The position numbers and the translations under genes are program-made. Under the pieces are notes generated by a model. The model was given only the letters and a program-made list of their open reading frames with translations. It made no database searches and was not told the DNA's origin. Shown here piece after piece: positions 41,271 through 64,000 of a stretch of DNA of 64,000 nt. Source of the stretch: Liolophura sinensis (taxonomy: Eukaryota; Mollusca; Polyplacophora; Chitonida; Chitonidae); contig NC_088302.1 in assembly GCF_032854445.1 (NCBI RefSeq), positions 38,816,191 through 38,880,190 on the forward strand, given 5' to 3'. Numbering within the stretch: the stretch's first letter is position 1; every line of letters starts with the position of its first letter.

Positions 41271-41370
41271 AACCATGGTCAGCATAGTTGTTTGCAAATC
41301 AGTAACCATGGGTAAGTACTTTTGTTTTCTTTTTATCTATTTTTTATGATGGCTGCCCAAAACTGCGTTA

Positions 41371-44601: not shown

Positions 44602-44628
44602 CCCATGGTGTCCATCTTTTTGTTAATA

Positions 44629-44896
44629 AGCTTTGGTGCATACCTGGCCCAGCCTGTGAGAAGGAAGCCATACAAATCTTGACATAACTTGACCGTCGAA
44701 ATCTAGACATTTCTATGCCGGAAACTGGGAGGGGTGCCTAGCAAGGCCAAGGGGACGTCACTGGAAGCCTCATCACCACCAGTTTCCTTGTGTCTTCTCG
44801 CCCCGAATTTCATACTTTCATCGTTAAAACTCATACCTGTACACCAAAAACGGCAGGCTGGCAGCAAAAAAACACTTAACACCCAAAAATACACTG
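44629..44896 (-). repeat. Inverted block of unit spacer
   Basis: On + AAGCTTTGGTGCATACCTGG, then CCCAGCCTGTGAGAAGGAAGCC, the reverse complement of the usual spacer. It ends near AACACTTAACACCCAAAAAT. Confidence 0.88.
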
Positions 44897-44924
44897 ATAA
44901 GCTTAGAAAAAATGAAAAATATGA

Positions 44925-45006
44925 CGTCGTCGGTAGGATTCGAACCTAAGCGGGAAGATCCCAATGGATTTCTAATCCATCACCTTAACCACTCTGCCAC
45001 GCCGAC
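44925..45006 (-). pseudogene. tRNA-Ser(AGA) gene, degraded
   Basis: 82 nt with the TTAGAAA loop and intact T arm, but one acceptor-stem mismatch and D-arm changes (GTGGCAGAGTGG, GGTGATGG). It is probably a pseudogene, though less decayed than its left neighbour. Confidence 0.65.
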
Positions 45007-46029: not shown

Positions 46030-47310
46030 TCATACGCCGTCCAAAGAGACTTTATTAAGTGTGATTAACATCAAATCTGACCTACTGAAGAATTACCTGA
46101 AGTAGGTTTTCTATGTTCGTGTTGCCACACAGGCTGCACATAGTGCTCTGTTAAAGAAGGAAAAGTTTGTTCTTGGTTACACCGTATGGAATATTAACCC
46201 GGCCAGTTCTGTGTTTATGAACCTTACTGCCCACTGGGCCCCTGATGAAATGTCGGATGATTTGATAGCGTCCGCGTTGAAACCATATGGGGAGTGCCTT
46301 AGTGTTACGAAGCCACTGTTTTCAAGGAATTTGCGGGCGTACGAACTCGTATTCGAGTATATCGGTTCAGGTGCCACAAAACGCGGTATGTGCCGCACTT
46401 TTTTAGTTGTAAGGGTGAGGTTGTAATGTTTACATACCCTGGGCAAATGTACGAATGTAGGAAGTGTAGAGAAAATGGGCATAAAGCCATGGAATGCTGT
46501 GCCTTATGGTGCGATAACTGTTCGGGGTTCTCTCCCCCCCCCCCTCCTTCATGATGATCCCCTCACTGTAAAGAATTGTACACGAGCGCGTCGTATGTGT
46601 GGCTCGATGGAGCATGCAAGTGGTAATTGTTGTGCTCGGGCTTCAACGTATGCGTCCAAAGTCGAGAATTCTGTGCAGAATACGGCGAGTGCGCAGGCCC
46701 CGATCAGGACGTCACAACTGACGTTGACGTTGTCGGGGGCGGTAGCGACGATGACGACTTAGAGTTTCCGCCTCCTGCCATGGAAATTATTACATAATTA
46801 TCAACATAATTGACAGCGGAGGAGAAGATGGTGATGATGTTGACGTAGATGGTGATGATGATGGTGATAGTGGTGATGGTGACGATGATAATAACGAAAA
46901 AAATTGGCGCAGATGACGAAGCTGAGATTGACGCTACCAGAGCGGAGGATGATCCATTGGGTAACATGGAGTGTGACAGAGGTACGCGCGTTGTACCTAA
47001 TGTGACCAAAGACCGTGATGGTGTGACTAGAGATTTGTCTGGTGCGATAGAAGTCCAGACGGAAGCCAACTGCGTGCGATCTCCAGAGCCCGTTGAACAA
47101 AAGAGAGCAAAACTGGACAATGAACCGGAGGGGACGTCATCGGCATTATGGAGCACGCTACCGTCGGATTGCGTAATGCAGGGGGACTCGGATGGCATAT
47201 CTGAGATCATGACACCCACCCCCTCTCAAGGTACTGATAAAATGTTAGTAGAGTGTCGGCGCAGCAAATCTTTCGCCTCTCGTTCGAGAGCGCCTAAAGA
47301 TAATGAATAG
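46030..47310 (+). pseudogene. LINE C ORF1 (gag-like) remnant
   Basis: An RRM-like segment (NLTAHWAPDEMSDDLIASAL, 46216), a good zinc knuckle CRKCRENGHKAMEC (CX2CX4HX4C, 46455), a second Cys/His cluster (RRMCGSMEHASGNC, 46595), a GAT/GGTGAT low-complexity acidic stretch (46825-46900) and an open 153-codon C-terminal part (46849-47310). Frameshifts break the ORF at about 46420 and 46500. Confidence 0.78.
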
Positions 47311-47404
47311 ATTTTACTAGAATATGGACAAGGATACGCTCCCACATGAACAAGGGGTATGTACCGTCATATTTTTCTTATCTGTTTAATATCTCTCGTA
47401 TCTA

Positions 47405-48690
47405 ACATACGTTTTGGCACTTTAAATGTTAATGGCTGTTACAAAGCAGGAGCAGGTACAACAATTTGTTTTTGATAACAACATTGAACACATTTTCAAG
47501 GTTATACGGACGCTAGGAATTTTAAATTTTAAAATTCCAAGGGATGCTAGGTGGGCCTACGGGTCAAGTTAAAGTTGTGGGGGTTGGGGGGGGGAGGGGG
47601 GTGGTGATTGTTATTCGATACACTGTTGACCGTCTAATAGGTAATGTCGTTAGATGTCCTAACGGGCGTTACGTAAGTGTTAAAGTGACAATTAATGACA
47701 CGGCTCTTAATCTGATATGTATATATGCACCTAATAATCCACAGGATAGGAAAGAATTTATTTCTAACTTAGTGTAATGCGTGGGAGTGAATTAGTCATT
47801 CTTGGTGGGGATTTTAACTGCCTTGAAAATATTATATTTGATAGAATTGGGTCTGTAAATAATGTGAGAAATATTGGTATTGATGAGATTAATAGTATTA
47901 AATATGATTTTGAGGTTTGGGATGTTTTTAGGAAGTTTCATCCGGACAGACGGTGCCACACCTGGTCAAGAGACCAGTGCGCTAATCGGCTTGATAGATT
48001 CTACCTTCCTAATGCTGTTCAGAGTTATGTAACCTTTTGTGATGTTAAACATGTCTCCTTTTCTGATCATTCTTGTCCTATTGTTGATGTAAATTTTACG
48101 GATGTAATTACTTGGGTCCGTTTTATTGGAAATGTAACATTTCTATTTTGAATGACGAAGAACATGATTTACAAATAAATGATGTCCTTGTAAGTATTTT
48201 TTCTGATTGTGACATTTGTGATGCTACCTTAATGGACAGGTGGGAGGCTTTCAAAAAGGATTGTAAAGATGTAATACGTAATTATTGTTCGCAAGTTTCA
48301 TTAAGGAAAAAGAGCCAGTTGTGGGATCTACAAGATAAATTGAATATATTAAAGTCAAACCCTGTTGTAAATAGGGATAAGATTGATAAAAGAAGACTGT
48401 TAATTGTTTAAATAGAAAGAGACATGCCAGATCGGTTATTAGGGCTAAGGCTGTTCACTTTGATAAGGAGGAAAAGCCTACGAAGTATTTTATTAGGACG
48501 GAAGTGGGGTGGGGGAAAAAGAAAATGATAAAGGAAATTAAGTGTCACGGGAATGAGTCTCAGTCCCATAAATCCCAGAATGAAATTGCTAAATGTATCA
48601 GGTCATATTACAAACAATTGTACAGTAAGCAGAATACTGATTTTGTGTCAAGACGCGTTTCTATCAGAATTACCGAAGTTAAATGATAAT
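47405..48690 (+). pseudogene. LINE C ORF2 5' part (endonuclease)
   Basis: GDFN and SDHS endonuclease motifs are intact in 47777-48151. Frames change at about 47450, 47776 and 48125, and a further break follows at 48411. Confidence 0.8.
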
Positions 48691-48830
48691 TGTAAAGCTC
48701 TTTGGGAAGGCGCATTGACGGAATAAGAGCTCTTGTTTGCTGTAAATGATGAAGGGTTGGGTGAGTTCAATGCCTGTGAAGAAGGCTGAGGGAAGCCGCT
48801 TAACTGATAAGCATAGAAAAAAAAATGTGA

Positions 48831-48912
48831 CGTCGCCGGAAGGATTCGAACCTACGCGAGAATATCCCAATAGAATTCTAATCCATCACCTTAAACACTC
48901 GTCCACGACGAC
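48831..48912 (-). pseudogene. tRNA-Ser pseudogene in a deleted unit
   Basis: 82 nt, but an anticodon-stem mismatch, TTAGAAT loop and several D-arm changes. About 480 bp of spacer are missing just after it (near 49157). Confidence 0.75.
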
Positions 48913-49368
48913 CCCATTTCTTCCATCTTTGTCTTAATGATGGATTCCCAAATGTGTGATCCGTGTGCCCTTGAAAGTTTGTCTCTATTTACACCTGCAG
49001 GAAAGGCAAGACAAGGAGGCAACTGTGTCCAAACTAAGCTGAAGACTGACATAAATGAATGGTGAAAACAGGCATGTATTAGCAAGAAGTTTGCCAACAG
49101 ACCCCCATTACAACTTCCCTTTTGCCAGAGGGACGAATATTATCCTGTGTATTTTAGGGAAAATTAATGGGGTTGTGGAACTGTTTGCTGGTCGAATTCA
49201 TCGAGGTGTAAAGATGTCAGAAACTATCCAACTGGTCTATCAACGAATAAGACTAACCAGAAGAAAAGGGAGTAAGTAATAGCGTCTGTGAAGGGAAAAC
49301 GGATTAGATTCTCCATGTGATGAACAACTTAAGCAAATCTTAATGACAATAGAGCTAGGCAATAAATT

Positions 49369-49425
49369 GGCCGGTTAGCTCAGTCGGCATAGCGGCGTGC
49401 TAATAACGCGAATATCATGGGTAAC
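49369..49425 (+). pseudogene. tRNA-Ile pseudogene, 3' end deleted
   Basis: The 5' part is normal to the anticodon (GCTAATAACGCGAAT), but the TTCGAGCCCCATATCGGCC end is deleted and the sequence passes straight into GGTAACGTTTTTTG. Confidence 0.9.
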
Positions 49426-49571
49426 GTTTTTTGATCACTGGGGGGAAAAGTTTTCTCTGCTTTGGCTGTCCATGAGCACAGCAGCACACCTATGATGAAG
49501 GGTTGGGTGATCCCACAGTCTGTGAAGAAGACTCAGGCAAGCTGCATAAGTGATAACCATAGAAAAAATGA

Positions 49572-49653
49572 TGTCGCCGGTAGGATTCAAACCTACGCGG
49601 GAAGATCCCAATGGATTTCTAATCCATCGCCTTAACGACTCGGCCACGATGAC
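49572..49653 (-). pseudogene. tRNA-Ser(AGA), mildly degraded
   Basis: The anticodon loop is intact, but the discriminator-side base, the T loop (GTTTGAAT) and the D arm (AGTCGTTAAGG on -) are changed. It may not be functional. Confidence 0.6.
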
Positions 49654-49716
49654 CCCAAGTCCTCCATCTTTGTCTTAATGATGGATTCCCAAATGTGCGA
49701 TCCGTGTGCCCCTGAT

Positions 49717-50049
49717 TGAGTGAGTGAGTGTTTGGGGTTTAACGTCGTACTCAACAATTTTTCAGTCATATGACGACAAAGGAATCCTTACGGTGCATGT
49801 GCGTGTAATGTAATAAGTCATAGGATAAGTCCTTGTAGCAGGACGGATTTCCATCCGAAGGCAAGTAAGCCGCCCCGCCCGAGCCCTTGTACTGATACGG
49901 GTCAACCAGTCGTTGCATTATCCATTTTAAACAACAAGCGAGAAAGATACAACATCCTCTTTTAAAGTCTTATTTGTGACTCGATCTAGGATTGATCCTG
50001 GATCTACCGGCCCAGAAGCGGACGCTCTACCAACTGTGCTATGCGGGCC
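49717..50049 (-). mobile_element. SINE2 full-length copy inside the array
   Basis: On + it begins TGAGTGAGTGAGTGTTTGGG and GTTTAACGTCGTACTC and ends at the head AGCGGACGCTCTACCAACTG then TGCTATGCGGGCC. Its minus-strand head GGCCCGCATAGCACAGTTGG then TAGAGCG is tRNA-like. It interrupts the unit spacer between CCGTGTGCCCCT and AAAAGTTTGTCTC. Confidence 0.9.
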
Positions 50050-50832
50050 GGTGGTGCCCCACACACCCCTCCCTTAAAAGTTTGTCTCTATTTACACCTG
50101 CAGGAAAGGCAAGACAAGTGGTCAACTGTGTCCAAACTCCGCTAAAGACTGACATAAATGAATGGTGGAAACAGGCATGTATTAGCAAGACGTTTGCACA
50201 CAAACCCCCATTACAACTTCCCTTTTGCCAGAGGGACGAATGTTATCCTCTGTATTTTAGAGTGTTAAGTGTTTTTCTGCGGCCAGCCTGTCGTTTTTGG
50301 CGAAAAGGTGCATACTTGGTATCAAAATGCTGGAAATTGTCTAAGCTTTGGGTAGGTATGAGTTTTAATGATACAAGTTTGAAATTCAGGGCGAGAAGAC
50401 ACAAGGAAACAGGTGGTGATGAGGCTTCAAGTGACGTCAACTTGGCCTTCCTAGGCACCCCTCCCAGCTGCCGGTATACAAAGGTCCAGATTTTGACGGT
50501 CAACCAGTGAAGATTTTTATGGCTTCCTTCTCACAGGCTGGGCCAGGTAAGCACCAAAGCTTACTGGCCACGGAATGTTTGGGACTGAGCTACAATGCTA
50601 AAGGTTAAATTTGTCGCTCATGGAAAATTAAATGGGTTCTGTAATTGTTTGCTGGTCGACGTCATCAAGGTGTAAAGATGTCAGAAACTGTCCCACTGGT
50701 CTATCAACGAATAATACTAACAAGTAGAAAAGGGAGTAAGTGATAGCGTCTGTGAAGGGAAAACGGGTTGGATTGTCCATGTGATGAACAACTTAAGCAT
50801 TTCTTAATGACAAAAGAGTTAGGCAAGAAATT

Positions 50833-50905
50833 GGCCGGTTAGCTCAGTCGGCAGAGCGTCGTGCTAATAACGCGATTGTCATGGGTTCGAGCCCCATATC
50901 GGCCA
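50833..50905 (+). tRNA. tRNA-Ile (anticodon AAU)
   Basis: 73 nt. The acceptor GGCCGGT pairs with ATCGGCC; D stem GCTC/GAGC; anticodon stem TCGTG/CGCGA with loop CTAATAA (anticodon AAT at 50866-50868); T stem ATGGG/CCCAT with TTCGAGC loop. A box TAGCTCAGTCGG and B box GGTTCGAGCCC fit Pol III promoters. A T-run terminator follows the gene (TTAACCTTTTTTGATC). It decodes AUU after A34-to-I editing, as known for eukaryotic tRNA-Ile(AAU). Confidence 0.95.
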
Positions 50906-51067
50906 TTAACCTTTTTTGATCACTGGGGGGCAAAAAGTTTTCACTACTTTGGCTGTCCATGGGCACAGCAGCACACCTATGATGAAGGGTTGGGTGAGCC
51001 CAATGCCTGTGAAGAAGACTCAGGCAAGCTGCATAAGTGATAAGCATAACAAAAAAGAAAAATGTGA

Positions 51068-51149
51068 CGTCGCCGGTAGGATTCGAACCTACGCGGGAAG
51101 ATCCCAATGGATTTCTAATCCATCGCCTTAACCACTCGGCCACGACGAC
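51068..51149 (-). tRNA. tRNA-Ser (anticodon AGA)
   Basis: 82 nt with a long variable arm as in class II tRNAs. The acceptor GTCGTCG pairs with CGGCGAC plus discriminator G; anticodon stem ATGGA/TCCAT with loop TTAGAAA (AGA); T arm TAGGTTCGAATCCTA. A box TGGCCGAGTGG and B box GGTTCGAATCC are intact. Downstream on the minus strand lies a T-run terminator (ATTTTTCTTTTTTG). Very similar to animal tRNA-Ser(AGA). Confidence 0.95.
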
Positions 51150-52759
51150 CCCATGGCCTCTATCTTTGTCTTAATAATGGATTCCCAAATGTGCGAGCCG
51201 TGTGACCTTAAAGGTTTGTCTCTATTTACACTACTTTGGCTGTTCATGGGCACAGCAGTACACCTATGATGAAGGGTTGGGTGAGCCCAATGCCTGTGAG
51301 GAAGACTCAGGCAAGCTGCATAAGTGATAAGCATAGAAAGTGACGACCCCATGGTCTCCATCTTTGTCTTAATAATGGATTCCCAAATTTGCGAGCCGTG
51401 TGACCTTGAAGGTTTGTCTCTATTTACACCTGCAGGAAAGGCAAGACAAGGGGGCAACTGTGTCCAAACTCCGCTAAAGACTGACATAAATGAATGGTGG
51501 AAACAGGCATGTATTAGCAAGACGTTTGCACACAAACCCCCAATACAACTTTCCTTTTGCCAGAGGGACGAATGTTATCCTCTGTATTTTAGAGTGTTAA
51601 GTGTTTTTCTGCGGCCAGCCTGTCGTTTTTGGCGAAAAGGTGCATACTTGGTATCAAAATGCTGGAAATTGTCTAAGCTTTGGGTGGGTATGAATTTTAA
51701 TGATACAAGTTTGAAATTCAGGGCGAGAAGACACAAGGAAACAGGTGGTGATGAGGCTAAAGGTTAAATTTGTCGCTCATGGAAAATTAAATGGGTTCTG
51801 TAATTGTTTGCTGGTCGACGTCATCAAGGTGTAAAGATGTCAGAAACTGTCCCACTGGTCTATCAACGAATAATACTAACAAGTAGAAAAGGGAGTAAGT
51901 GATAGCGTCTGTGAAGGGAAAACGGGTTGGATTGTCCATGTGATGAACAACTCCATCTTTGTCTTAATAATGGATTCCCAAATGTGCGAGCCGTGTGACC
52001 TTGAAGGTTTGTCTCTATTTACACCTGCGGGAAAGGCAAGACAAGGGGGCAACTGTGTCCAAACTCCGCTAAAGACTGACATAAATGAATGGTGGAAACA
52101 GGCATGTAATAGCAAGACGTTTGCACACAAATCCCCATTTCAACTTCCCTTTTGCCAGAGGGACGAATGTTATCCTCTGTATTTTAGAGTGTTAAGTGTT
52201 TTTCTGCGGCCAGCCTGTCGTTTTTGGCGAAAAGGTGCATACTTGGTATCAAAATGCTGGAAATTGTCTAAGCTTTGGGTAGGTATGAATTTTAATGATA
52301 CAAGTTTGAAATTCAGGGCGAGAAGCCACAAGGAAACAGGTGGTGATGAGGCTTCGAGTGACGTCAACTTGGCCTTCCTAGGCACCCCTCCCAGCTGCCA
52401 GTATACAAAGGTCCAGATTTTGACGGTCAACCCCTCAAGATTTTTATGGCTTCCTTCTCACAGGCTGGGCCAGGTAAGCACCAAAGCTTAGTGGCCACGG
52501 AATGTTTTTGACTGAGCTACAACGCTAAAGGTTAAATTTGTCGCTCATGGAAAATTAAATGGGTTCTGTAATTGTTTGCTGGTCGACGTCATCAAGGTGT
52601 AAAGATGTCAGAAACTGTCCCACTGGTCTATCAACGAATAATACTAACAAGTAGAAAAGGGAGTAAGTGATAGCGTCTGTGAAGGGAAAACGGGTTGGAT
52701 TGTCCATGTGATGAACAACTTAAGCATTTCTTAATGACAAAAGAGTTAGGCAAAAAATT
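51150..52759 (+). repeat. Two deleted units without tRNA genes
   Basis: Near 51228 the spacer jumps (ATTTACACTACTTTGGC), skipping the rest of the spacer and the next tRNA-Ile. Near 51340 it jumps from GCATAGAAAG into GTGACGACCCCATGG, skipping the tRNA-Ser body. At about 51757 and 51950 (GATGAGGCTAAAGG, GAACAACTCCATCTTTG) two further joins remove another spacer part and another tRNA pair. Confidence 0.9.
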
Positions 52760-52832
52760 GGCCGATTAGCTCAGTCGGCAGAGCGTCGTGCTAATAACGC
52801 GAATGTCATGGGTTCGAGCCCCATATTGGCCA
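52760..52832 (+). tRNA. tRNA-Ile (AAU)
   Basis: As the copy at 50833, but acceptor GGCCGAT pairs with ATTGGCC: G6-to-A with C-to-T in the partner strand keeps an A-T pair and leaves one G-T wobble. A and B boxes intact, T6 terminator follows. Confidence 0.92.
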
Positions 52833-52994
52833 TTAACGTTTTTTGATCACTGGGGGACAAAAAGTTTTCACTACTTTGGCTGTCCATGGGCACAGCAGCA
52901 CACCTATGATGAAGGGTTGGGTGAGCCCAATGCCTGTGAAGAAGACTCAGGCAAGCTGCATAAGTGATAAACATAGAAAAAATGAAAAATGTGA

Positions 52995-53076
52995 CGTCGC
53001 CGGTAGGATTCGAACCTACGCGGGAAGATCCCAATGGATTTCTAATCCATCGCCTTAACCACTCGGCCACGACGAC
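52995..53076 (-). tRNA. tRNA-Ser (AGA)
   Basis: Identical in all stems and loops to the copy at 51068. The terminator side carries a shorter T run (TTTTTTCTATG after ATTTTTCA). Confidence 0.94.
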
Positions 53077-53881
53077 CCCATAGTCTTCATCTTTGTCTTA
53101 ATAATGGATTCCCAAATGTGCGAGCCGTGTGACCTTGAAGGTTTGTCTCTATTTACACCTGCAGGAAAGGCAAGACAAGGGGGCAACTGTGTCCAAACTC
53201 CGCTAAAGACTGACATAAATGAATGGTGGAAACAGGCATGTATTAGCAAGACGTTTGCACACAGACTCCCATTACAACTTCCCTTTTGCCAGAGGGACGA
53301 ATGTTATCCTCTGTATTTTAGAGTGTTAAGTGTTTTTCTGCGGCCAGCCTGTCGTTTTTGGCGAACAGGTGCATACTTGGTATCAAAATGCTGGAAATTG
53401 TCTAAGCTTTGTGTAGGTATGAGTTTTAATGATACAAGTTTGAAATTCAGGGCGAGAAGACACAAGGAAACAGGTGGTGATGAGGCTTCGAGTGACGTCA
53501 ACTTGGCCTTCCTAGGCACCCCTCCCAGCTGCCAGTATACATAGATCCAGATTTTCATGATCAACCCGTCAAGATTTTTATGGCTTCCTTCTCACAGGCT
53601 GGGCCAGGTAAGCACCAAAGCTTACTGGCCACGGAATGTTTGGGACTGAGCTACAACGCTAAAGGTTAAATTTGTCGCTCATGGAAAATTAAATGGGTTC
53701 TGTAATTGTTTGCTGGTCGACGTCATCAAGGTGTAAAGATGTCAGAAACTGTCCCACTGGTCTATCAACGAATAATACTAACAAGTAGAAAAGGGAGTTT
53801 GTGAAGGGAAAACGGGTTGGATTGTCCATGTGATGAACAACTTAAATAACTCTTATTGACGAAAGAGTTAGGCAAGAAATT

Positions 53882-53954
53882 GGCCGGTTAGCTCAGTCGG
53901 CAGAGCGTCGTGCTAATAACGCGAATGTCATGGGTTCCAGCCCCATATCGGCCA
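53882..53954 (+). tRNA. tRNA-Ile (AAU), B box mutated
   Basis: Stems intact, but the T loop is TTCCAGC, so the B box reads GGTTCCAGCCC. The central CGA of the B box and T-loop fold is altered, which probably reduces transcription and stability. Followed by T6 and a G-rich variant spacer. Confidence 0.75.
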
Positions 53955-54126
53955 TTAACGTTTTTTGATCACTGGGGGGGAGGGGGGGGGTGAAGTTTTC
54001 ACTACTTGGGCTGTCCATGGGCACAGCAGCACACCTATGATGAAGGGTTGGGTGAGCCCAATGCCTGTGAAGAAGACTCAGGCAAGCTGCATAAGTGATA
54101 AGCATAGAAAAAAAAGAAAAATGTGA

Positions 54127-54208
54127 CGTCGCCGGTAGGATTCGAACCTACGCGGGAAGATCCCAATGGATTTCTAATCCATCGCCTTAACCACTCGGCC
54201 ACGACGAC
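54127..54208 (-). tRNA. tRNA-Ser (AGA)
   Basis: Same sequence and structure as 51068. T runs on the minus strand follow (ATTTTTCTTTTTTTTC). Confidence 0.94.
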
Positions 54209-55025
54209 CCCATTGTCTCCATCTTTGTCTTAATAATGGATTCCCAAATGTGCGAGCCGTGTGACCTTGAAGGTTTGTCTCTATTTACACCTGCGGGAAA
54301 GGCAAGACAAGGGGGCAACTGTGTCCAAACTCCGCTAAAGACTGACATAAATGAATGGTGGAAACAGGCATGTATTAGCAAGACGTTTGCACACAAACCC
54401 CCAATACTACTTCCCTTTTGCCAGAGGGACGAATGTTATCCTCTGTATTTTAGAGTGTTAAGTGTTTTTCTGCGGCCAGCCTGTCGTTTTTGGCGAAAAG
54501 GTGCATACTTGGTATCAAAATGGTGGAAATTGTCTAAGCTTTGGGTAGGTATGAGTTTTAATGATACAAGTTTGAAATTCAGGGCGAGAAGACACAAGGA
54601 AACAGGTGGTGATGAGGCTTCGAGTGACGTCAACTTGGCCTTCCTAGGCACCCCTCCCAGCTGCCGGTATACAAAGGTCCAGATTTTGACGGTCAACCCG
54701 TCAAGATTTTTATGGCTTCCTTCTCACAGGCTGGGCCAGGTAAGCACCAAAGCTTACTGGCCACGGAATGTTTGGGACTGAGCTACAACGCTAAAGGTTA
54801 AATTTGTCGCTCATGGAAAATTAAATGGGTTCTGTAATTGTTTGCTGGTCGACGTCATCAAGGTGTAAAGATGTCAGAAACTGTCCCACTGGTCTATCAA
54901 CGAATAATACTAACAAGTAGAAAAGGGAGTAAGTGATAGCGCCTGTGAAGGGAAAACGGGTTGGATTGTCCATGTGATGAGCAGCTTAAGCATTTCTTAA
55001 TGACAAAAGAGTCAGGCAAGAAATT

Positions 55026-55098
55026 GGCCGGTTAGCTCAGTCGGCAGAGCGTCGTGCTAATAACGCGAATGTCATGGGTTCGAGCCCCATATCGGCCA
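55026..55098 (+). tRNA. tRNA-Ile (AAU)
   Basis: Consensus copy of the array: all stems paired, A and B boxes intact, T6 terminator 8-9 nt downstream. Confidence 0.96.
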
Positions 55099-55260
55099 TT
55101 AACGTTTTTTGATCACTGGGGGGCAAAAAGTTTTCACTACTTTGGTTGTCCATGGGCACAGCAGCACACCTATGATGAAGGGTTGGGTGAGCCCAATGCC
55201 TGTGAAGAAGACTCAGGCAAGCTGCATAAGTGATAAACATAGAAAAAAAGAAAAATGTGA

Positions 55261-55342
55261 CGTCGCCGGTAGGATTCGAACCTACGCGGGAAGATCCCAA
55301 TGGATTTCTAATCCATCGCCTTAACCACTCGGCCACGACGAC
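55261..55342 (-). tRNA. tRNA-Ser (AGA)
   Basis: Consensus copy; all stems paired; T5 and T7 runs downstream on the minus strand. Confidence 0.96.
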
Positions 55343-56159
55343 CCCATTGTCTCCATCTTTGTCTTAATAATGGATTCCCAAATGTGCGAGCCGTGTGACC
55401 TTGAAGGTTTGTCTCTATTTACACCTGCAGGAAAGGCAAGACAAGGGGGCAACTGTGTCCAAACTCCGCTAAAGACTGACATAAATGAATGGTGGAAACA
55501 GGCATGTATTAGCAAGACGTTTGCACACAAACCCCCATTACAACTTCCCTTTTGCCAGAGGGACGAATGTTATCCTCTGTATTTTAGAGTGTTAAGTGTT
55601 TTTCTGCGGCCAGCCTGTCGTTTTTATCGAAAAGGTGCATACTTGGTATCAAAATGCTGGAAATTGTCTAAGCTTTGGGTAGGTATGAGTTTTAATGATA
55701 CAAGTTTGAAATTCAGGGCGAGAAGACACAAGGAAACAGGTGTTGATGAGGCTTCGAGTGACGTCAACTTGGCCTTCCTAGGCACCCCTCCCAGCTGCCG
55801 GTATACAAAGGTCCAGATTTTGACGGTCAACCCGTCAAGATTTTTATGGCTTCCTTCTCACAGGCTGGGCCAGGTAAGCACCAAAGCTTACTGGCCACGG
55901 AATGTTTGGGACTGAGCTACAACGCTAAAGGTTAAATTTGTCGCTCATGGAAAATTAAATGGGTTCTGTAATTGTTTGCTGGTCGACGTCATCAAGGTGT
56001 AAAGATGCCAGAAACTGTCCCACTGGTCTATCAACGAATAATACTAACAAGTAGAAAAAGGAGTAAGTGATAGCGTCTGTGAAGGGAAAACGGGTTGGAT
56101 TGTCCATGTGATGAACAACTTAAGCATTTCTTAATGACAAAAGAGTTAGGCAAGAAATT

Positions 56160-56232
56160 GGCCGGTTAGCTCAGTCGGCAGAGCGTCGTGCTAATAACGC
56201 GAATGTCATGGGTTCGAGCCCCATATCGGCCA
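56160..56232 (+). tRNA. tRNA-Ile (AAU)
   Basis: Identical to the consensus copy at 55026, with the T6 terminator. Confidence 0.96.
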
Positions 56233-56394
56233 TTAACGTTTTTTGATCACTGGGGGGCAAAAAGTTTTCACTACTTTGGCTGTCCATGGGCACAGCAGCA
56301 CACCTATGATGAAGGGTTGGGTGAGCCCAATGCCTGTGAAGAAGACTCAGGCAAGCTGCATAAGTGATAAACATAGAAAAAAAGAAAAATGTGA

Positions 56395-56476
56395 CGTCGC
56401 CGGTAGGATTCGAACCTACGCGGGAAGATCCCAATGGATTTCTCATCCATCGCCTCAACCACTCGGCCACGACGCC
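56395..56476 (-). tRNA. tRNA-Ser (AGA), probably non-functional
   Basis: The anticodon loop is TGAGAAA: U33, needed for the U-turn, is G. The acceptor 5' strand is GGCGTCG, so position 2 no longer pairs with A71. The D arm also differs (GTTGAGGCG). The other stems and the T arm are normal. Confidence 0.7.
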
Positions 56477-57294
56477 CCCATTGTCTCCATCTTTGTCTTA
56501 ATAATGGATTCCCAAATGTGCGAGCCGTGTGACTTTGAATGTTTGTCTCTATTTACACCTGCAGGAAAGGCAAGACAAGGGGGCAACTGTGTCCAAACTC
56601 CGCTAAAGACTGACATAAATGAATGGTGGAAACAGGCATGTATTAGCAAGACGTTTGCACACAAACCCCCATTACAACTTCCCTTTTGCCAGAGGGACGA
56701 ATGTTATCCTCTGTATTTTAGAGTGTTAAGTGTTTTTCTGCGGCCAGCCTGTCGTTTTTTGGCGAAAAGGTGCATACTTGGTATCAAAATGCTGGAAATT
56801 GTCTAAGCTTTGGGTAGGTATGAATTTTAATGATACAAGTTTGAAATTCAGGGCGAGAAGACACAAGGAAACAGGTGGTGATGAGGCTTCGAGTGACGTC
56901 AACTTGGCCTTCCTAGGCACCCCTCCCAGCTGCCGGTATACAAAGGTCCAGATTTTGACGGTCAACCCGTCAAGATTTTTATGGCTTCCTTCTCACAGGC
57001 TGGGCCAGGTAAGCACCAAAGCTTACTGGCCACGGAATGTTTGGGACTGAGCTACAACGCTAAAGGTTAAATTTGTCGCTCATGGAAAATTAAATGGGTT
57101 CTGTAATTGTTTGCTGGTCGACGTCATCAAGGTGTAAAGATGTCAGAAACTGTCCCACTGGTCTATCAACGAATAATACTAGCAAGTAGAAAAGGGAGTA
57201 AGTGATAGCGTCTGTGAAGGGAAAACGGGTTGGATTGTCCATGTGATGAACAACTTAAGCATTTCTTAATGACAAAAGAGTCAGGCAAGAAATT

Positions 57295-57367
57295 GGCCGG
57301 TTAGCTCAGTCGGCAGACCGTCGTGCTAATAACGCGAATGTCATGGGTTCGAGCCCCATATCGGCCA
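57295..57367 (+). tRNA. tRNA-Ile (AAU), D-stem mismatch
   Basis: The D stem reads GCTC/GACC instead of GCTC/GAGC, breaking one pair. All else matches the consensus, with a T6 terminator. It may still fold. Confidence 0.82.
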
Positions 57368-57529
57368 TTAACGTTTTTTGATCACTGGGGGGCAAAAAGT
57401 TTTCACTACTTTGGCTGTCCATGGGCACAGCAGCACACCTATGATGAAGGGTTGGGTGAGCCCAATGCCTGTGAAGAAGACTCAGGCAAGCTGCATAAGT
57501 GATAAACATAGAAAAAAAGAAAAATGTGA

Positions 57530-57611
57530 CGTCGCCGGTAGGATTCGAACCTACGCGGGAAGATCCCAATGGATTTCTAATCCATCGCCTTAACCACTCG
57601 GCCACGACGAC
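57530..57611 (-). tRNA. tRNA-Ser (AGA)
   Basis: Consensus copy with intact boxes and T-run terminators. Confidence 0.95.
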
Positions 57612-58428
57612 CCCATTGTCTCCATCTTTGTCTTAATAATGGATTCCCAAATGTGCGAGCCGTGTGACCTTGAAGGTTTGTCTCTATTTACACCTGCGGG
57701 AAAGGCAAGACAAGGGGGCAACTGTGTCCAAACTCCGCTAAAGACTGACATAAATGAATGGTGGAAACAGGCATGTATTAGCAAGACGTTTGCACACAAA
57801 CCCCCATTACAACTTCGCTTTTGCCAGAGGGACGAATGTTATCCTCTGTATTTTAGAGTGTTAAGTGTTTTTCTGCGGTCAGCCTGTCGTTTTTGGCGAA
57901 AAGGTGCATACTTGGTATCAAAATGCTGGAAATTGTCTAAGCTTTGGGTAGGTATGAGTTTTAATGATACAAGTTTGAAATTCAGGGCGAGAAGACACAA
58001 GGAAACAGGTGGTGATGAGGCTTCGAGTGACGTCAACTTGGCCTTCCTAGGCACCCCTCCCAGCTGCCGGTATACAAAGGTCCAGATTTTGACGGTCAAC
58101 CCGTCAAGATTTTTATGGCTTCCTTCTCACAGGCTGGGCCAGGTAAGCACCAAAGCTTACTGGCCACGGAATGTTTGGGACTGAGCTACAACGCTAAAGG
58201 TTAAATTTGTCGCTCATGGAAAATTAAATGGGTTCTGTAATTGTTTGCTGGTCGACGTCATCAAGGTGTAAAGATGTCAGAAACTGTCCCACTGGTCTAT
58301 CAACGAATAATACTAACAAGTAGAAAAGGGAGTAAGTGATAGCGTCTGTGAAGGGAAAACGGGTTGGATTGTCCATGTGATGAACAACTTAAGCATTTCT
58401 TAATGACAAAAGAGTCAGGCAAGAAATT

Positions 58429-58501
58429 GGCCGGTTAGCTCAGTCGGCAGAGCGTCGTGCTAATAACGCGAATGTCATGGGTTCGAGCCCCATATCGGCC
58501 A
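58429..58501 (+). tRNA. tRNA-Ile (AAU)
   Basis: Consensus copy in an A-type unit of the higher-order repeat; T6 terminator. Confidence 0.96.
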
Positions 58502-58663
58502 TTAACGTTTTTTGATCACTGGGGGGCAAAAAGTTTTCACTACTTTGGCTGTCCATGGGCACAGCAGCACACCTATGATGAAGGGTTGGGTGAGCCCAAT
58601 GCCTGTGAAGAAGACTCAGGCAAGCTGCATAAGTGATAAACACAGAAAAAAAGAAAAATGTGA

Positions 58664-58745
58664 CGTCGCCGGTAGGATTCGAACCTACGCGGGAAGATCC
58701 CAATGGATTTCTAATCCATCGCCTCACCCACTCGGCCACGACGAC
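58664..58745 (-). tRNA. tRNA-Ser (AGA), D-loop variant
   Basis: The D loop is GAGTGGGTGA rather than GAGTGGTTAA. The A box TGGCCGAGTGG and the GG pair are kept, so it may still work. This variant marks A-type units. Confidence 0.88.
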
Positions 58746-59562
58746 CCCATTGTCTCCATCTTTGTCTTAATAATGGATTACCAAATGTGCGAGCCGTGTG
58801 ACCTTGAAGGTTTGTCTCTATTTACACCTGCGCGAAAGGCAAGACAAGGGGGCAACTGTGTCCAAACTCCGCTAAAGACTGACATAAATGAATGGTGGAA
58901 ACAGGCATGTATTAGCAAGACGTTTGCACACAAACCCCCATTACAACTTCCCTTTTGCCAGAGGGACGAATGTTATCCTCTGTATTTTAGAGTGTTAAGT
59001 GTTTTTCTGCGGCCAGCCTGTCGTTTTTGGCGAAAAGGTGCATACTTGGTATCAAAATGCTGGAAATTGTCTAAGCTTTGGGTAGGTATGAATTTTAATG
59101 ATACTAGTTTGAAATTCAGGGCGAGAAGACACAAGGAAACAGGTGTTGATGAGGCTTCGAGTGACGTCAACTTGGCCTTCCTAGGCACCCCTCCCAGCTG
59201 CCGGTATACAAAGGTCCAGATTTTGACGGTCAACCCGTCAAGATTTTTATGGCTTCCTTCTCACAGGCTGGGCCAGGTAAGCACCAAAGCTTACTGGCCA
59301 CGGAATGTTTGGGACTGAGCTACAACGCTAAAGGTTAAATTTGTCGCTCATGGAAAATTAAATGGGTTCTGTAATTGTTTGCTGGTCGACGTCATCAAGG
59401 TGTAAAGATGTCAGAAACTGTCCCACTGGTCTATCAACGAATAATACTAACAAGTAGAAAAGGGAGTAAGTGATAGCGTCTGTGAAGGGAAAACGGGTTG
59501 GATTGTCCATGTGATGAACAACTTAAGCATTTCTTAATGACAAAAGAGTCAGGCAAGAAATT

Positions 59563-59635
59563 GGCCGGTTAGCTCAGTCGGCAGAGCGTCGTGCTAATAA
59601 CGCGAATGTCATGGGTTCGAGCCCCATATCGGCCA
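59563..59635 (+). tRNA. tRNA-Ile (AAU)
   Basis: Consensus copy (A-type unit), T6 terminator. Confidence 0.96.
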
Positions 59636-59797
59636 TTAACGTTTTTTGATCACTGGGGGGCAAAAAGTTTTCACTACTTCGGCTGTCCATGGGCACAGCA
59701 GCACACCTATGGTGAAGGGTTGGGTGAGCCCAATGCCTGTGAAGAAGACTCAGGCAAGCTGCATAAGTGATAAACACAGAAAAAAAGAAAAATGTGA

Positions 59798-59879
59798 CGT
59801 CGCCGGTAGGATTCGAACCTACGCGGGAAGATCCCAATGGATTTCTAATCCATCGCCTCACCCACTCGGCCACGACGAC
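59798..59879 (-). tRNA. tRNA-Ser (AGA), D-loop variant
   Basis: Same D-loop variant as the copy at 58664; otherwise consensus. Confidence 0.88.
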
Positions 59880-60696
59880 CCCATTGTCTCCATCTTTGTC
59901 TTAATAATGGATTACCAAATGTGCGAGCCGTGTGACCTTGAAGGTTTGTCTCTATTTACACCTGCGCGAAAGGCAAGACAAGGGGGCAACTGTGTCCAAA
60001 CTCCGCTAAAGACTGACATAAATGAATGGTGGAAACAGGCATGTATTAGCAAGACGTTTGCACACAAACCCCCATTACAACTTCCCTTTTGCCAGAGGGA
60101 CGAATGTTATCCTCTGTATTTTAGAGTGTTAAGTGTTTTTCTGCGGCCAGCCTGTCGTTTTTGGCGAAAAGGTGCATACTTGGTATCAAAATGCTGGAAA
60201 TTGTCTAAGCTTTGGGTAGGTATGAATTTTAATGATACTAGTTTGAAATTCAGGGCGAGAAGACACAAGGAAACAGGTGTTGATGAGGCTTCGAGTGACG
60301 TCAACTTGGCCTTCCTAGGCACCCCTCCCAGCTGCCGGTATACAAAGGTCCAGATTTTGACGGTCAACCCGTCAAGATTTTTATGGCTTCCTTCTCACAG
60401 GCTGGGCCAGGTAAGCACCAAAGCTTACTGGCCACGGAATGTTTGGGACTGAGCTACAACGCTAAAGGTTAAATTTGTCGCTCATGGAAAATTAAATGGG
60501 TTCTGTAATTGTTTGCTGGTCGACGTCATCAAGGTGTAAAGATGTCAGAAACTGTCCCACTGGTCTATCAACGAATAATACTAACAAGTAGAAAAGGGAG
60601 TAAGTGATAGCGTCTGTGAAGGGAAAACGGGTTGGATTGTCCATGTGATGAACAACTTAAGCATTTCTTAATGACAAAAGAGTCAGGCAAGAAATT

Positions 60697-60769
60697 GGCC
60701 GGTTAGCTCAGTCGGCAGAGCGTCGTGCTAATAACGCGAATGTCATGGGTTCGAGCCCCATATCGGCCA
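60697..60769 (+). tRNA. tRNA-Ile (AAU)
   Basis: Consensus gene body; the terminator is shortened to T5 (AACGTTTTTGATC). First B-type unit. Confidence 0.95.
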
Positions 60770-60930
60770 TTAACGTTTTTGATCACTGGGGGGCAAAAAG
60801 TTTTCACTACTTTGGCTGTCCATGGGCACAGCAGCACACCTATGGTGAAGGGTTGGGTGAGCCCAATGCCTGTAAAGAAGACTCAGGCAAGCTGCATAAG
60901 TGATAAGCATAGAAAAAAAGAAAAATGTGA

Positions 60931-61012
60931 CGTCGCCGGTAGGATTCGAACCTACGCGGGAAGATCCCAATGGATTTCTAATCCATCGCCTTAACCACTC
61001 GGCCACGACGAC
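60931..61012 (-). tRNA. tRNA-Ser (AGA)
   Basis: Consensus D loop (GTTAAGG), so it differs from the A-type neighbours on both sides. Confidence 0.95.
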
Positions 61013-61829
61013 CCCATGGTCTCCATCTTTGTCTTAATAATGGATTCCCAAATGTGCGAGCCGTGTGACCTTGAAGGTTTGTCTCTATTTACACCTGCGG
61101 GAAAGGCAAGACAAGGGGGCAACTGTGTCCAAACTCCGCTAAAGACTGACATAAATGAATGGTGGAAACAGGCATGTATTAGCAAGACGTTTGCACACAA
61201 ACCCCCATTACAACTTCGCTTTTGCCAGAGGGACGAATGTTATCCTCTGTATTTTAGAGTGTTAAGTGTTTTTCTGCGGCCAGCCTGTCGTTTTTATCGA
61301 AAAGGTGCATACTTGGTATCAAAATGCTGGAAATTGTCTAAGCTTTGGGTAGGTATGAGTTTTAATGATACAAGTTTGAAATTCAGGGCGAGAAGACACA
61401 AGGAAACAGGTGGTGATGAGGCTTCGAGTGACGTCAACTTGGCCTTCCTAGGCACCCCTCCCAGCTGCCGGTATACAAAGGTCCAGATTTTGACGGTCAA
61501 CCCGTCAAGATTTTTATGGCTTCCTTCTCACAGGCTGGGCCAGGTAAGCACCAAAGCTTACTGGCCACGGAATGTTTGGGACTGAGCTACAACGCTAAAG
61601 GTTAAATTTGTCGCTCATGGAAAATTAAATGGGTTCTGTAATTGTTTGCTGGTCGACGTCATCAAGGTGTAAAGATGTCAGAAACTGTCCCACTGGTCTA
61701 TCAACGAATAATACTAACAAGTAGAAAAGGGAGTAAGTGATAGCGTCTGTGAAGGGAAAACGGGTTGGATTGTCCATGTGATGAACAACTTAAGCATTTC
61801 TTAATGACAAAAGAGTCAGGCAAGAAATT

Positions 61830-61902
61830 GGCCGGTTAGCTCAGTCGGCAGAGCGTCGTGCTAATAACGCGAATGTCATGGGTTCGAGCCCCATATCGGC
61901 CA
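61830..61902 (+). tRNA. tRNA-Ile (AAU)
   Basis: Consensus copy (A-type unit), T6 terminator. Confidence 0.96.
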
Positions 61903-62064
61903 TTAACGTTTTTTGATCACTGGGGGGCAAAAAGTTTTCACTACTTTGGCTGTCCATGGGCACAGCAGCACACCTATGATGAAGGGTTGGGTGAGCCCAA
62001 TGCCTGTGAAGAAGACTCAGGCAAGCTGCATAAGTGATAAACACAGAAAAAAAGAAAAATGTGA

Positions 62065-62146
62065 CGTCGCCGGTAGGATTCGAACCTACGCGGGAAGATC
62101 CCAATGGATTTCTAATCCATCGCCTCACCCACTCGGCCACGACGAC
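62065..62146 (-). tRNA. tRNA-Ser (AGA), D-loop variant
   Basis: A-type D-loop variant (GAGTGGGTGA); all stems paired. Confidence 0.88.
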
Positions 62147-62963
62147 CCCATTGTCTCCATCTTTGTCTTAATAATGGATTACCAAATGTGCGAGCCGTGT
62201 GACCTTGAAGGTTTGTCTCTATTTACACCTGCGCGAAAGGCAAGACAAGGGGGCAACTGTGTCCAAACTCCGCTAAAGACTGACATAAATGAATGGTGGA
62301 AACAGGCATGTATTAGCAAGACGTTTGCACACAAACCCCCATTACAACTTCCCTTTTGCCAGAGGGACGAATGTTATCCTCTGTATTTTAGAGTGTTAAG
62401 TGTTTTTCTGCGGCCAGCCTGTCGTTTTTGGCGAAAAGGTGCATACTTGGTATCAAAATGCTGGAAATTGTCTAAGCTTTGGGTAGGTATGAATTTTAAT
62501 GATACTAGTTTGAAATTCAGGGCGAGAAGACACAAGGAAACAGGTGTTGATGAGGCTTCGAGTGACGTCAACTTGGCCTTCCTAGGCACCCCTCCCAGCT
62601 GCCGGTATACAAAGGTCCAGATTTTGACGGTCAACCCGTCAAGATTTTTATGGCTTCCTTCTCACAGGCTGGGCCAGGTAAGCACCAAAGCTTACTGGCC
62701 ACGGAATGTTTGGGACTGAGCTACAACGCTAAAGGTTAAATTTGTCGCTCATGGAAAATTAAATGGGTTCTGTAATTGTTTGCTGGTCGACGTCATCAAG
62801 GTGTAAAGATGTCAGAAACTGTCCCACTGGTCTATCAACGAATAATACTAACAAGTAGAAAAGGGAGTAAGTGATAGCGTCTGTGAAGGGAAAACGGGTT
62901 GGATTGTCCATGTGATGAACAACTTAAGCATTTCTTAATGACAAAAGAGTCAGGCAAGAAATT

Positions 62964-63036
62964 GGCCGGTTAGCTCAGTCGGCAGAGCGTCGTGCTAATA
63001 ACGCGAATGTCATGGGTTCGAGCCCCATATCGGCCA
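62964..63036 (+). tRNA. tRNA-Ile (AAU)
   Basis: Consensus copy in the second B-type unit; T6 terminator. Confidence 0.96.
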
Positions 63037-63198
63037 TTAACGTTTTTTGATCACTGGGGGGCAAAAAGTTTTCACTACTTTGGCTGTCCATGGGCACAGC
63101 AGCACACCTATGGTGAAGGGTTGGGTGAGCCCAATGCCTGTAAAGAAGACTCAGGCAAGCTGCATAAGTGATAAGCATAGAAAAAAAGAAAAATGTGA
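63037..63198. terminator. Convergent Pol III terminator interval (example for all units)
   Basis: The 162 bp between the two tRNA 3' ends hold a T6 run for tRNA-Ile at its left edge and, read on the minus strand, T5 and T7 runs for tRNA-Ser at its right edge. The same layout recurs in every complete unit. Confidence 0.85.
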
Positions 63199-63280
63199 CG
63201 TCGCCGGTAGGATTCGAACCTACGCGGGAAGATCCCAATGGATTTCTAATCCATCGCCTTAACCACTCGGCCACGACGAC
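63199..63280 (-). tRNA. tRNA-Ser (AGA)
   Basis: Consensus copy, last in the window; the next tRNA-Ile would start near 64098, outside it. Confidence 0.95.
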
Positions 63281-64000
63281 CCCATGGTCTCCATCTTTGT
63301 CTTAATAATGGATTCCCAAATGTGCGAGCCGTGTGACCTTGAAGGTTTGTCTCTATTTACACCTGCGGGAAAGGCAAGACAAGGGGGCAACTGTGTCCAA
63401 ACTCCGCTAAAGACTGACATAAATGAATGGTGGAAACAGGCATGTATTAGCAAGACGTTTGCACACAAACCCCCATTACAACTTCGCTTTTGCCAGAGGG
63501 ACGAATGTTATCCTCTGTATTTTAGAGTGTTAAGTGTTTTTCTGCGGCCAGCCTGTCGTTTTTATCGAAAAGGTGCATACTTGGTATCAAAATGCTGGAA
63601 ATTGTCTAAGCTTTGGGTAGGTATGAGTTTTAATGATACAAGTTTGAAATTCAGGGCGAGAAGACACAAGGAAACAGGTGTTGATGAGGCTTCGAGTGAC
63701 GTCAACTTGGCCTTCCTAGGCACCCCTCCCAGCTGCCGGTATACAAAGGTCCAGATTTTGACGGTCAACCCGTCAAGATTTTTATGGCTTCCTTCTCACA
63801 GGCTGGGCCAGGTAAGCACCAAAGCTTACTGGGCACGGAATGTTTGGGACTGAGCTACAACGCTAAAGGTTAAATTTGTCGCTCATGGAAAATTAAATGG
63901 GTTCTGTAATTGTTTGCTGGTCGACGTCATCAAGGTGTAAAGATGTCAGAAACTGTCCCACTGGTCTATCAACGAATAATACTAACAAGTAGAAAAGGGA
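63281..64000 (+). other. Unit spacer (example for all units)
   Basis: The ~817-bp spacer has no Pol III boxes. It is open in one + frame for about 180 codons from an ATG shortly after the tRNA-Ser gene (268 codons in A-type units), but no known domain is encoded and most copy-to-copy changes alter residues. It probably does not code for protein. Confidence 0.6.

Follow-up and report, generated by a model that had tools for sequence, protein, structure and literature searches.

What kind of locus brings facing tRNA-Ile and tRNA-Ser genes together in a long tandem array, and why should LINE retrotransposons lie repeatedly at the same place within it? The question arises from a 64,000-nucleotide stretch (the window) of scaffold C8 of the chiton Liolophura sinensis, a marine mollusc (published as L. 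japonica). The reading favoured here, to which we give a probability of roughly 0.8, is that of a probably working Ile/Ser array into which a LINE, guided to tRNA genes when it integrates, has inserted time and again.

A sequence-only reading of the window had described eleven copies each of convergent tRNA-Ile(AAU) and tRNA-Ser(AGA) genes, recurring at a near-constant 1,134-bp step up to the window edge. The convergent array is real and runs on for another 55.5 kb, reaching a total length of 70.7 kb, in which ARAGORN places 44 Ile and 48 Ser genes, the majority well scored (Table 1). Within the window ARAGORN found 11 tRNA-Ile(AAT) genes on the + strand and 15 tRNA-Ser(AGA) genes on the - strand, 11 and 13 of which, respectively, belong to the array; the count of eleven thus stands for Ile but not for Ser, two copies of which at the left edge (48831 and 49572) have no Ile partner. 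Likewise, the regular step holds from about 52.4 kb onwards but not before, the left edge being rearranged (successive Ile-to-Ile steps of 1927, 1122, 1144, 1134, 1135, 1134, 1134, 1134, 1133 and 1134 bp). Chance is excluded as the source of the repeat: across the window, complete units match the reference unit at 95-100% identity, and even at the right edge of the array the full-length unit that has decayed furthest retains 87%. The 38 full units without interruption have a mean pairwise diversity of 0.027, some pairs being identical; unequal crossing-over and gene conversion would keep the units alike.

Table 1. Features of the window (window positions; unit positions refer to the reference unit, numbered 1-1134)
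Feature	Position	Strand	Basis or remark
Oldest LINE relative A (ORF2 part, 32-51% aa identity)	26014..27697	+	tblastn
Oldest tRNA unit remnant (pieces 78-87% identity)	27730..28493		tRNA-Ser relic 27766-27847, ARAGORN only
Old LINE relative B (ORF1 35-66% aa, ORF2 42-68% aa identity)	40142..44463	+	tblastn; protein match ends 44155
Decayed tRNA unit remnant, one piece inverted	44464..45756		tRNA-Ser(AGA) relic 44925-45006 (42.8 bits)
Old LINE relative C, truncated (ORF1 and first part of ORF2, 36-69% aa identity)	45949..48745	+	tblastn
Ile/Ser array, 1,134-bp units: + strand tRNA-Ile(AAU) facing - strand tRNA-Ser(AGA)	48746..64000		continues beyond window to C8:38935645
Reference unit (1-1134)	58028..59161	+	
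tRNA-Ile(AAT), unit 401-475, then T-run	58428..58502	+	ARAGORN; cmscan 52.7-64 bits over window copies
tRNA-Ile starts in window (n=11)	50832, 52759, 53881, 55025, 56159, 57294, 58428, 59562, 60696, 61829, 62963	+	
Gap between the two tRNA 3' ends, 161 bp (unit 476-636), LINE landing zone	58503..58663		junctions at unit ~537-602
tRNA-Ser(AGA), unit 637-718	58664..58745	-	ARAGORN; cmscan 37.4-62.1 bits over array copies in window
tRNA-Ser starts in array part of window (n=13)	48831, 49572, 51068, 52995, 54127, 55261, 56395, 57530, 58664, 59798, 60931, 62065, 63199	-	
Dispersed repeat, ~448 bp (unit 898-1134 joined to next unit's 1-211)	58925..59372		genome matches and alignment to one copy

The genes had been taken to be mostly intact and followed by T-runs, and this is borne out: T-runs follow both genes, 41 of 44 Ile genes and 43 of 50 Ser genes (the array plus two outlying Ser relics) score at least 50 bits, and 25 of the 26 ARAGORN genes in the window reach the cmscan gathering score, the absentee being an isolated Ser at 27766. 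Of the 13 Ser copies that the window includes from the array, three stand well below the rest in score (37.4, 41.5 and 52.9 bits). Among 40 genome matches to the Ser gene scored of 103 candidates, 38 fall in the array, 32 of them exact, which makes it a main home of this gene. A transcription-associated mutation signature was also considered and rejected: over all 38 units the flanks looked more variable, but with three decayed edge units removed the difference is not significant (5' flank against distal sequence, p = 0.10; 3' flank, p = 0.54; genes against flanks, p = 0.18). Given these non-significant values, it is not used as evidence.

Furthermore, dispersed copies of a segment of about 448 bp (unit 898-1134 plus 1-211) occur elsewhere in the genome at 75-90% identity, so that the unit is made in part of a dispersed repeat. 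A SINE expansion, already disfavoured in the sequence-only reading, was rejected on the tandem 1,134-bp organisation and on the non-C8 matches listed, none of which reaches beyond the dispersed-repeat portion (unit 887-1134 or 1-252). A protein-coding unit was rejected as well, the 270-aa frame tested having no Pfam match and crossing the antisense tRNA-Ser. Apart from this, a sub-threshold match to Plastid-ycf2 was put down to chance. Judged on its sequence, the locus is a gene array organised like a satellite, in which most tRNA genes are intact; the window probably holds the left end of a working multicopy tRNA-Ile/tRNA-Ser array.

The most informative feature of the region is its link to a retrotransposon, which had gone unmentioned and lies mostly outside the part of the window first described. 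Three LINEs of 5.2 kb (I1, I2 and I3) stand between convergent genes, all in the Ile orientation and with poly-A tails. Their junctions, the three recent ones in the array, fall within about 16 bp of one another, and their target-site duplications (TSDs) differ and lie at different offsets (I1 about TGAAGGGTTGGG, I2 GCACACCTATGATG, I3 GCAGCACACCT). Two of the three (I1 and I3) keep stop-free frames of 460 and 1,163/1,169 codons, separated by 34 bp in I1 and about 15 bp in I3 when frames are bounded by stops. The ORF2 of I1 contains Exo_endo_phos, RVT_1 and zf-RVT domains by Pfam and finds its best PDB match in L1 ORF2p; its ORF1 has no Pfam match, and CCHC-like motifs are recognised in LINE ORF1 by pattern only. 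With two ORFs, CCHC-like knuckles in ORF1 and APE and RT in ORF2, the element is of Tx1/L1 type, the clade being placed roughly; the 120 protein matches listed are 27-40% identical and nearly all without a name. The idea that three insertions in one array might be due to local chance was dropped after the genome-wide LINE survey.

In that survey, searches with the LINE 3' end (40 copies scored of 102 candidates, 97-100% identical) and 5' end (40 of 72, 95-100%) were used. Upstream windows were obtained for 20 of the 37 copies outside the array, 15 of them informative and five uninformative. Eleven of the informative windows carry a tRNA gene or fragment upstream, in every case in the orientation of the LINE: Leu AAG, His, Ala-like, Leu CAG, Asp, a Leu type with intron, a Glu-like fragment, Pro, Leu TAA, Ser TGA and Thr, the Ala, intron-Leu and Glu labels being assigned by eye. 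Four of these genes are weak, at 31-37 bits (L077, L078, L081, L091). The remaining windows comprise one with a same-orientation 5S fragment, which by eye interrupts a tRNA-like sequence (L082), two in which the nearest 230-243 bp or so upstream contain neither a tRNA nor a 5S gene (L086, L093), and one unreadable, with 73 bases of N and a tRNA gene some 675 bp upstream (L090). Three further copies were located from their coordinates only: C12:19836548 and C12:19848674 belong to the tRNA-His array, and C10:35329823 to a tRNA cluster; such placements can be found only at already known tRNA coordinates, and one of the 17 copies without a 5' window was so placed.

The eleven windows, the three coordinate-only copies, I2 and I3 make up a set of 16, I1 being excluded because 33 bp are missing from the 3' half of the Ile gene upstream of it. 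Spread over nine scaffolds and 13 tRNA loci, next to tRNA genes of about nine amino-acid identities, these copies start 33-179 bp downstream of the tRNA gene (median 101), and all 16 share its orientation (binomial p = 3e-5 if independent; 2 x 0.5^13 = 2.4e-4 with each locus counted once). Copies within one array may be array duplications; the two in the His array, at 115 and 117 bp, have 3' flanks 91% identical. On the 3' side a tRNA gene was found by ARAGORN in only 3 of 37 flanks, and as background none was found in 210,899 bp of C8 outside 38843900-38936000. Where found, the TSDs differ in sequence between loci, the L082 and L090 strings being set aside; L088, L089, L091 and L093 yielded no exact TSD, and no shared nick sequence was seen across sites on inspection.

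Moreover, the window holds traces of earlier insertions. Relative C joins the array directly at unit position 548; the A-rich 3' end of relative B abuts a unit remnant at unit ~580-585; and relative A adjoins the oldest remnant, which starts at unit ~602 and whose other end stops at unit ~571-589. Since these diverged relatives lie in the very part of the Ile/Ser unit that the recent insertions use, and with their orientation, the sequences suggest that the tRNA-targeting habit is older than the present LINE family.

As to mechanism, the ORF1 or ORF2 protein would contact a Pol III factor on the tRNA gene, either TFIIIC on the B box or TFIIIB; the endonuclease would then nick whichever site it could reach, some 100 bp beyond the gene, and the fixed polarity would follow from target-primed reverse transcription. 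The tRNA arrays could thereby offer the LINE a harmless, self-renewing landing pad. We lean, with some reserve, towards a wider view: that animals own a TRE3-like lineage of L1/Tx1-type LINEs which recognises the Pol III apparatus, not a DNA sequence, and can invade every tRNA gene family; that chiton arrays and LINE have coexisted long enough for several generations to fossilise at the same position; and that array and LINE expansion may feed each other.

Other explanations have to be weighed against steering to tRNA genes. The LINE might target any Pol III gene, 5S rRNA included, as the 5S-like sequences near three C6 copies (L063, L070, L082) could indicate. We consider this unlikely: those sequences score 54-76 bits, against 117-122 for the best 47 of 15,286 5S candidates, and a tRNA-like gene is also present there by eye; moreover, no scored LINE copy lies where those best candidates fall (C4:7.98-8.08M and contig C238), the 5S and LINE lists both being incomplete.

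Alternatively, the endonuclease, which resembles L1 and Tx1-type ones, might read a short DNA sequence in tRNA spacers with no Pol III factor involved; the model would be the zebrafish element Dewa, which we take to be a sequence-specific member of the Tx1 group. The close spacing of the three recent array junctions would fit, yet three different TSDs occur even inside the array, TSDs differ next to Leu, His, Asp, Pro and Glu-like genes with gaps from 33 to 179 bp, and a common orientation without a common sequence is hard to obtain by sequence recognition alone, so that we hold this explanation to be rather improbable.

It is very doubtful that random insertions were simply multiplied by unequal crossing-over of tRNA arrays. 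Such multiplication would fit C11:22.21-22.24M, where three copies share an equal 3.4 kb length and flanks 98-99% identical; nevertheless, it does not account for thirteen loci on nine scaffolds with different gaps, for the distinct TSDs seen at several unlinked tRNA loci, or for the 16/16 orientation over unrelated loci. Finally, that the array is an artefact of an assembly from 14X HiFi reads of mean length 8.3 kb (PMC11068029), as its identical unit pairs might suggest, is highly improbable, given that the 38 full units differ among themselves, the edge units decay, the LINE inserts carry distinct TSDs and the 302,999 bases read around the array contain no N.

Position-specific targeting of tRNA genes by retrotransposons has been studied in yeasts and social amoebae. 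Among openly licensed papers no published case of general tRNA-gene targeting by an animal element was found; the words animals, zebrafish and vertebrate are absent from the available portion of a review on such targeting (PMC5911963), and the literature search turned up one example of an animal LINE, which is described as tied to a single tRNA spacer (PMC3706591). If steering to tRNA genes is true, a mollusc LINE about 100 bp past many tRNA genes would mean that such targeting has arisen, or has been kept, among animals; it would provide a natural system for studying how L1-type machinery finds a safe site, and may help to explain the large tRNA arrays of some animal genomes.

With regard to known systems, the array by itself is another member of the tandem heterotypic tRNA clusters, its genes lying less than 1 kb apart, the cluster spacing used in PMC2888827, and being repeated head to tail. 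The clusters surveyed there, the human 7.3-kb tRNA VNTR at 1q23.3 (PMC4041453) and the Arabidopsis SYY cluster (PMC12308677) likewise consist of repeated tRNA gene units or clusters, and the same chiton genome, which keeps many of its tRNA genes in long head-to-tail rows, has further arrays (one Thr/Arg, one His). What sets the Ile/Ser array apart from the human, Arabidopsis and surveyed clusters is its pairing of Ile with Ser genes, their tail-to-tail (convergent) placing and a 1.1-kb unit to which a dispersed repeat contributes. Among mobile elements, animal tRNA and snRNA genes are also the targets of Dada DNA transposons (PMC3706591), but these use a DDE transposase and insert inside the genes, by an unrelated mechanism. 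Dewa is, like the chiton LINE, an animal LINE associated with tRNA genes; it sits in the tRNA-Leu spacer (PMC3706591), whereas the chiton LINE lies next to many isoacceptors with different TSDs. In Dictyostelium, TRE5-A, whose ORF1p binds TFIIIB and which needs the B box (PMC5911963), shares the targeting of tRNA genes but inserts upstream and in the opposite orientation. The closest likeness is to TRE3 of Dictyostelium discoideum, also L1-type, with ORF1, an ORF2 carrying APE, RT and zinc finger, and a poly-A end. TRE3 inserts 40-150 bp downstream in the same orientation, a range that contains 14 of the 16 chiton gaps (the others being 33 and 179 bp), with 16/16 in orientation. The ORFs of TRE3 overlap, TRE3-A being described as needing a -1 frameshift (PMC5911963), while those of the chiton LINE are apart, and the hosts differ, a social amoeba and an animal; the likeness is one of position, polarity and domain layout.

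Unit copies of the tandem array of convergent tRNA-Ile and tRNA-Ser genes, which the sequence-only reading had reaching the window edge, do continue beyond it: in the sequence read, C8:38746191-39049189 (302,999 bases, no N; C-numbers denote contigs), they span C8:38864936-38935645, that is, 70.7 kb. The window itself occupies C8:38816191-38880190. The eleven copies first claimed for each gene in the window stand for tRNA-Ile(AAT) (11, plus strand), but not for tRNA-Ser(AGA) (15, minus strand; both by ARAGORN), and 25 of these 26 genes pass the Rfam cut-off (cmscan). Over window and extension, ARAGORN finds 44 Ile and 50 Ser genes, 48 of the latter within the array; at least 50 bits are scored by 41 and 43 of them, respectively (cmscan), which bears out the claim that most copies are intact. 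The two genes of a unit are separated by 161 bp, and the proposed terminators are present, a T-run lying directly 3' of both. Genome-wide, 38 of the 40 scored matches to the Ser gene (103 candidates) fall inside the array and the other two elsewhere on C8.

Mean pairwise diversity among 38 uninterrupted units is 2.7% per site. Units resemble their neighbours more than units further away (0.019 at lag 1 vs 0.0265 at lag 15), identical or near-identical units sometimes lie two or three steps apart, and divergence is greatest at the right edge of the array, as would be expected under unequal exchange and conversion. In the 35 central units, one Ser gene sequence is common to 28 and one Ile gene sequence to 16; per-site diversity is 0.0122 in the genes vs 0.019-0.039 in flanks and spacers, and the number of variable sites in these units does not differ significantly between genes and flanks (p = 0.18). 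Part of the unit (positions 898-1134 plus 1-211, about 448 bp, e.g. window 58925-59372) is a dispersed repeat, with 85 matches genome-wide (38 scored of 1,768 candidates); among the matches listed, the tRNA part of the unit is matched on C8 only. At several places (C1, C2, C6) the 448-bp repeat occurs in pairs about 2.9 kb apart, which suggests the terminal repeats of some element.

The array also contains three LINEs (I1-I3), 96-99% identical to each other, all with poly-A tails and with differing target-site duplications within unit positions ~537-562. Stop-free frames of 460 and 1,163/1,169 codons are found in I1 and I3, while those of I2 are broken. ORF2 has endonuclease, reverse transcriptase and zf-RVT domains; ORF1 has no match in Pfam, and CCHC-like patterns occur at its residues 205, 223 and 245 (by pattern). 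The closest solved structure is L1 ORF2p, with further matches to L1 endonucleases and to chain 2v0r 'LTX', presumably the Tx1L endonuclease. The best protein match (among 120 listed of 197) is unnamed and 39% identical, and in a quick ORF2 tree of 47 proteins the neighbours of the chiton LINE are unnamed proteins of ~1,160 residues, with three named fish proteins lying apart.

Moreover, the I1 proteins, used as queries, revealed three older relatives inside the window (A-C). Since their junctions, as well as the end of an ancient unit half (unit ~571-589, window 28493), lie in the inter-gene stretch, this stretch of the convergent unit seems to have received the LINE lineage more than once. 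Both orientations occur among the more distant LINE fragments of the region.

tRNA arrays, array LINEs and their older relatives
Feature	Location	Orientation	Description
Thr/Arg array (L033)	C12:24448501-24456500 (8 kb)	convergent	six Thr(CGT) and six Arg(TCT) genes
tRNA-His array	C12:19802410-19851070	all one strand	36 of 40 scored matches (44 candidates)
I1	C8 ~38901630-38906822	Ile orientation	array insert right of window
I2	C8 ~38909044-38914309	Ile orientation	array insert right of window
I3	C8 ~38919880-38925080	Ile orientation	array insert right of window
LINE relative A	window 26014-27697	+	decayed; adjoins unit ~602
LINE relative B	window 40142-44155	+	decayed; A-rich end against unit ~580-585
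LINE relative C	window 45949-48745	+	decayed, truncated; joined to unit 548

Other tRNA arrays exist in the genome. The Thr/Arg array has TRF periods of ~1,302 and ~1,516, and a LINE copy starts near it, at C12:24458104. Many steps of the tRNA-His array measure ~720-860 bp, and three LINE copies start 57-117 bp downstream of its genes. Further tRNA clusters lie on C1, C9 and C10. The Ile and Ser genes of the window array and the Thr genes of the C12 array are all preceded, ~20-29 bp upstream and as judged by eye, by an A/T-rich stretch resembling a TATA box (TTAATGA, TTATTAAGA), which could be a TFIIIB contact site.

Searches with the LINE ends gave 40 scored of 102 candidate 3' ends (97-100% identical, on many scaffolds, often clustered) and 40 of 72 candidate 5' ends. 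A 5' end was paired with 27 of the 40 3' ends at 5,126-5,263 bp; when distances of up to 12 kb are allowed, 34 are paired, of which the pairs at 6.1 and 10.4 kb may be mispairs or interrupted copies. At C11:22214671-22242466, copies of ~3.4 kb with near-identical flanks, three paired by both ends, are probably a shortened LINE amplified within a tandem array.

Of the 250-bp 3' flanks, taken for each of the 37 listed copies that lie outside the C8 array, three hold a tRNA gene in LINE orientation (ARAGORN); cmscan gave the same three, plus 5S in two. By eye, a tRNA gene's 3' half opens flanks L045 and L059, and L062 is spacer of the Thr/Arg array. On the 5' side, 251 bp at the expected end were sampled for 20 of the 37 copies, exact ends being taken from the 5' end search. 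Fifteen of these 5' sequences were informative (L074, L075, L077-L082, L084, L086, L088-L091, L093, including L090, unreadable because of N); L076, L083, L085, L087 and L092 were uninformative, showing no junction, LINE interior or 37 bp, or lying too far away. An upstream tRNA gene or fragment was present in 11 of the 15, eight by ARAGORN (Leu AAG, His, Leu CAG, Asp, Pro, Leu TAA, Ser TGA, Thr) and three by cmscan only (L077, L080, L081). L082 has an upstream 5S fragment, its LINE interrupting what by eye is a tRNA-like sequence, and the 5' sequences of L086 and L093 hold no upstream tRNA or 5S gene. All 12 upstream genes (the 11 tRNAs and the L082 5S) have the orientation of the LINE.

Adding I2, I3 and three further copies placed by coordinates alone to the 11 copies with an upstream tRNA gene or fragment gives 16 gaps, which represent 13 loci and nine scaffolds: 33, 48, 51, 57, 73, 76, 83, 100, 102, 105, 106, 115, 117, 126, 136 and 179 bp. 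I1 was omitted because the preceding Ile gene has lost 33 bp, and the His-array copies at 117 and 115 bp, whose 3' flanks are 91% identical, may represent a single event. As background, 210,899 bp of C8 sequence beyond the array region contained no tRNA gene by ARAGORN.

Exact-match target-site duplications of 8-17 bp, differing in sequence, occur in seven fetched pairs (L074, L075, L078, L079, L081, L084, L086); none was found for L088, L089, L091 and L093, and the strings for L082, L090 and L092 are unreliable. That polarity and distance are fixed while no fixed sequence is evident speaks for a protein tether sitting on the tRNA gene, by which the LINE would be steered. Among the scored copies and scored 5S genes, both incomplete lists, no LINE copy lies in the main 5S array on C4; this absence favours tRNA promoters, with TFIIIC at the B box, over Pol III in general as the putative cue. 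Away from that array, LINE copies share the region C6:20463650-20502955 with 5S-like sequences of 54-76 bits and with what by eye is a tRNA-like gene.

Regarding the assembly, GCA_032854445.1 is described in a passage of PMC11068029 as Liolophura japonica, with 632 scaffolds and 609,495,693 bases, from HiFi reads at 14X that average 8,347 bp; L. sinensis is the corrected name (PMC12441733). On C99, seven COX1 copies follow one another at intervals of ~15.5 kb, and C632 carries one more; this is a mitochondrial genome concatemer and probably an assembly artefact. The window also holds an imperfect tandem repeat of 31/41-bp units (12471-14860, ~2.4 kb) and, at 18665-19672 (minus strand), a SOCS-box protein open frame with nine matches, 91% identical to unnamed entries and ~45-53% to three named mollusc proteins (Haliotis, Patella, Octopus).

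Finally, animals are known to have heterotypic tRNA clusters (PMC2888827), and the Ile/Ser array, by itself, is therefore of a known kind. Among LINEs, Dewa of zebrafish differs in being tied, as a passage of PMC3706591 has it, to a tRNA-Leu spacer. TRE3, the Dictyostelium non-LTR retrotransposon found downstream of tRNA genes, has a different ORF arrangement; by analogy, and with no claim of membership, the chiton LINE would work like TRE3.
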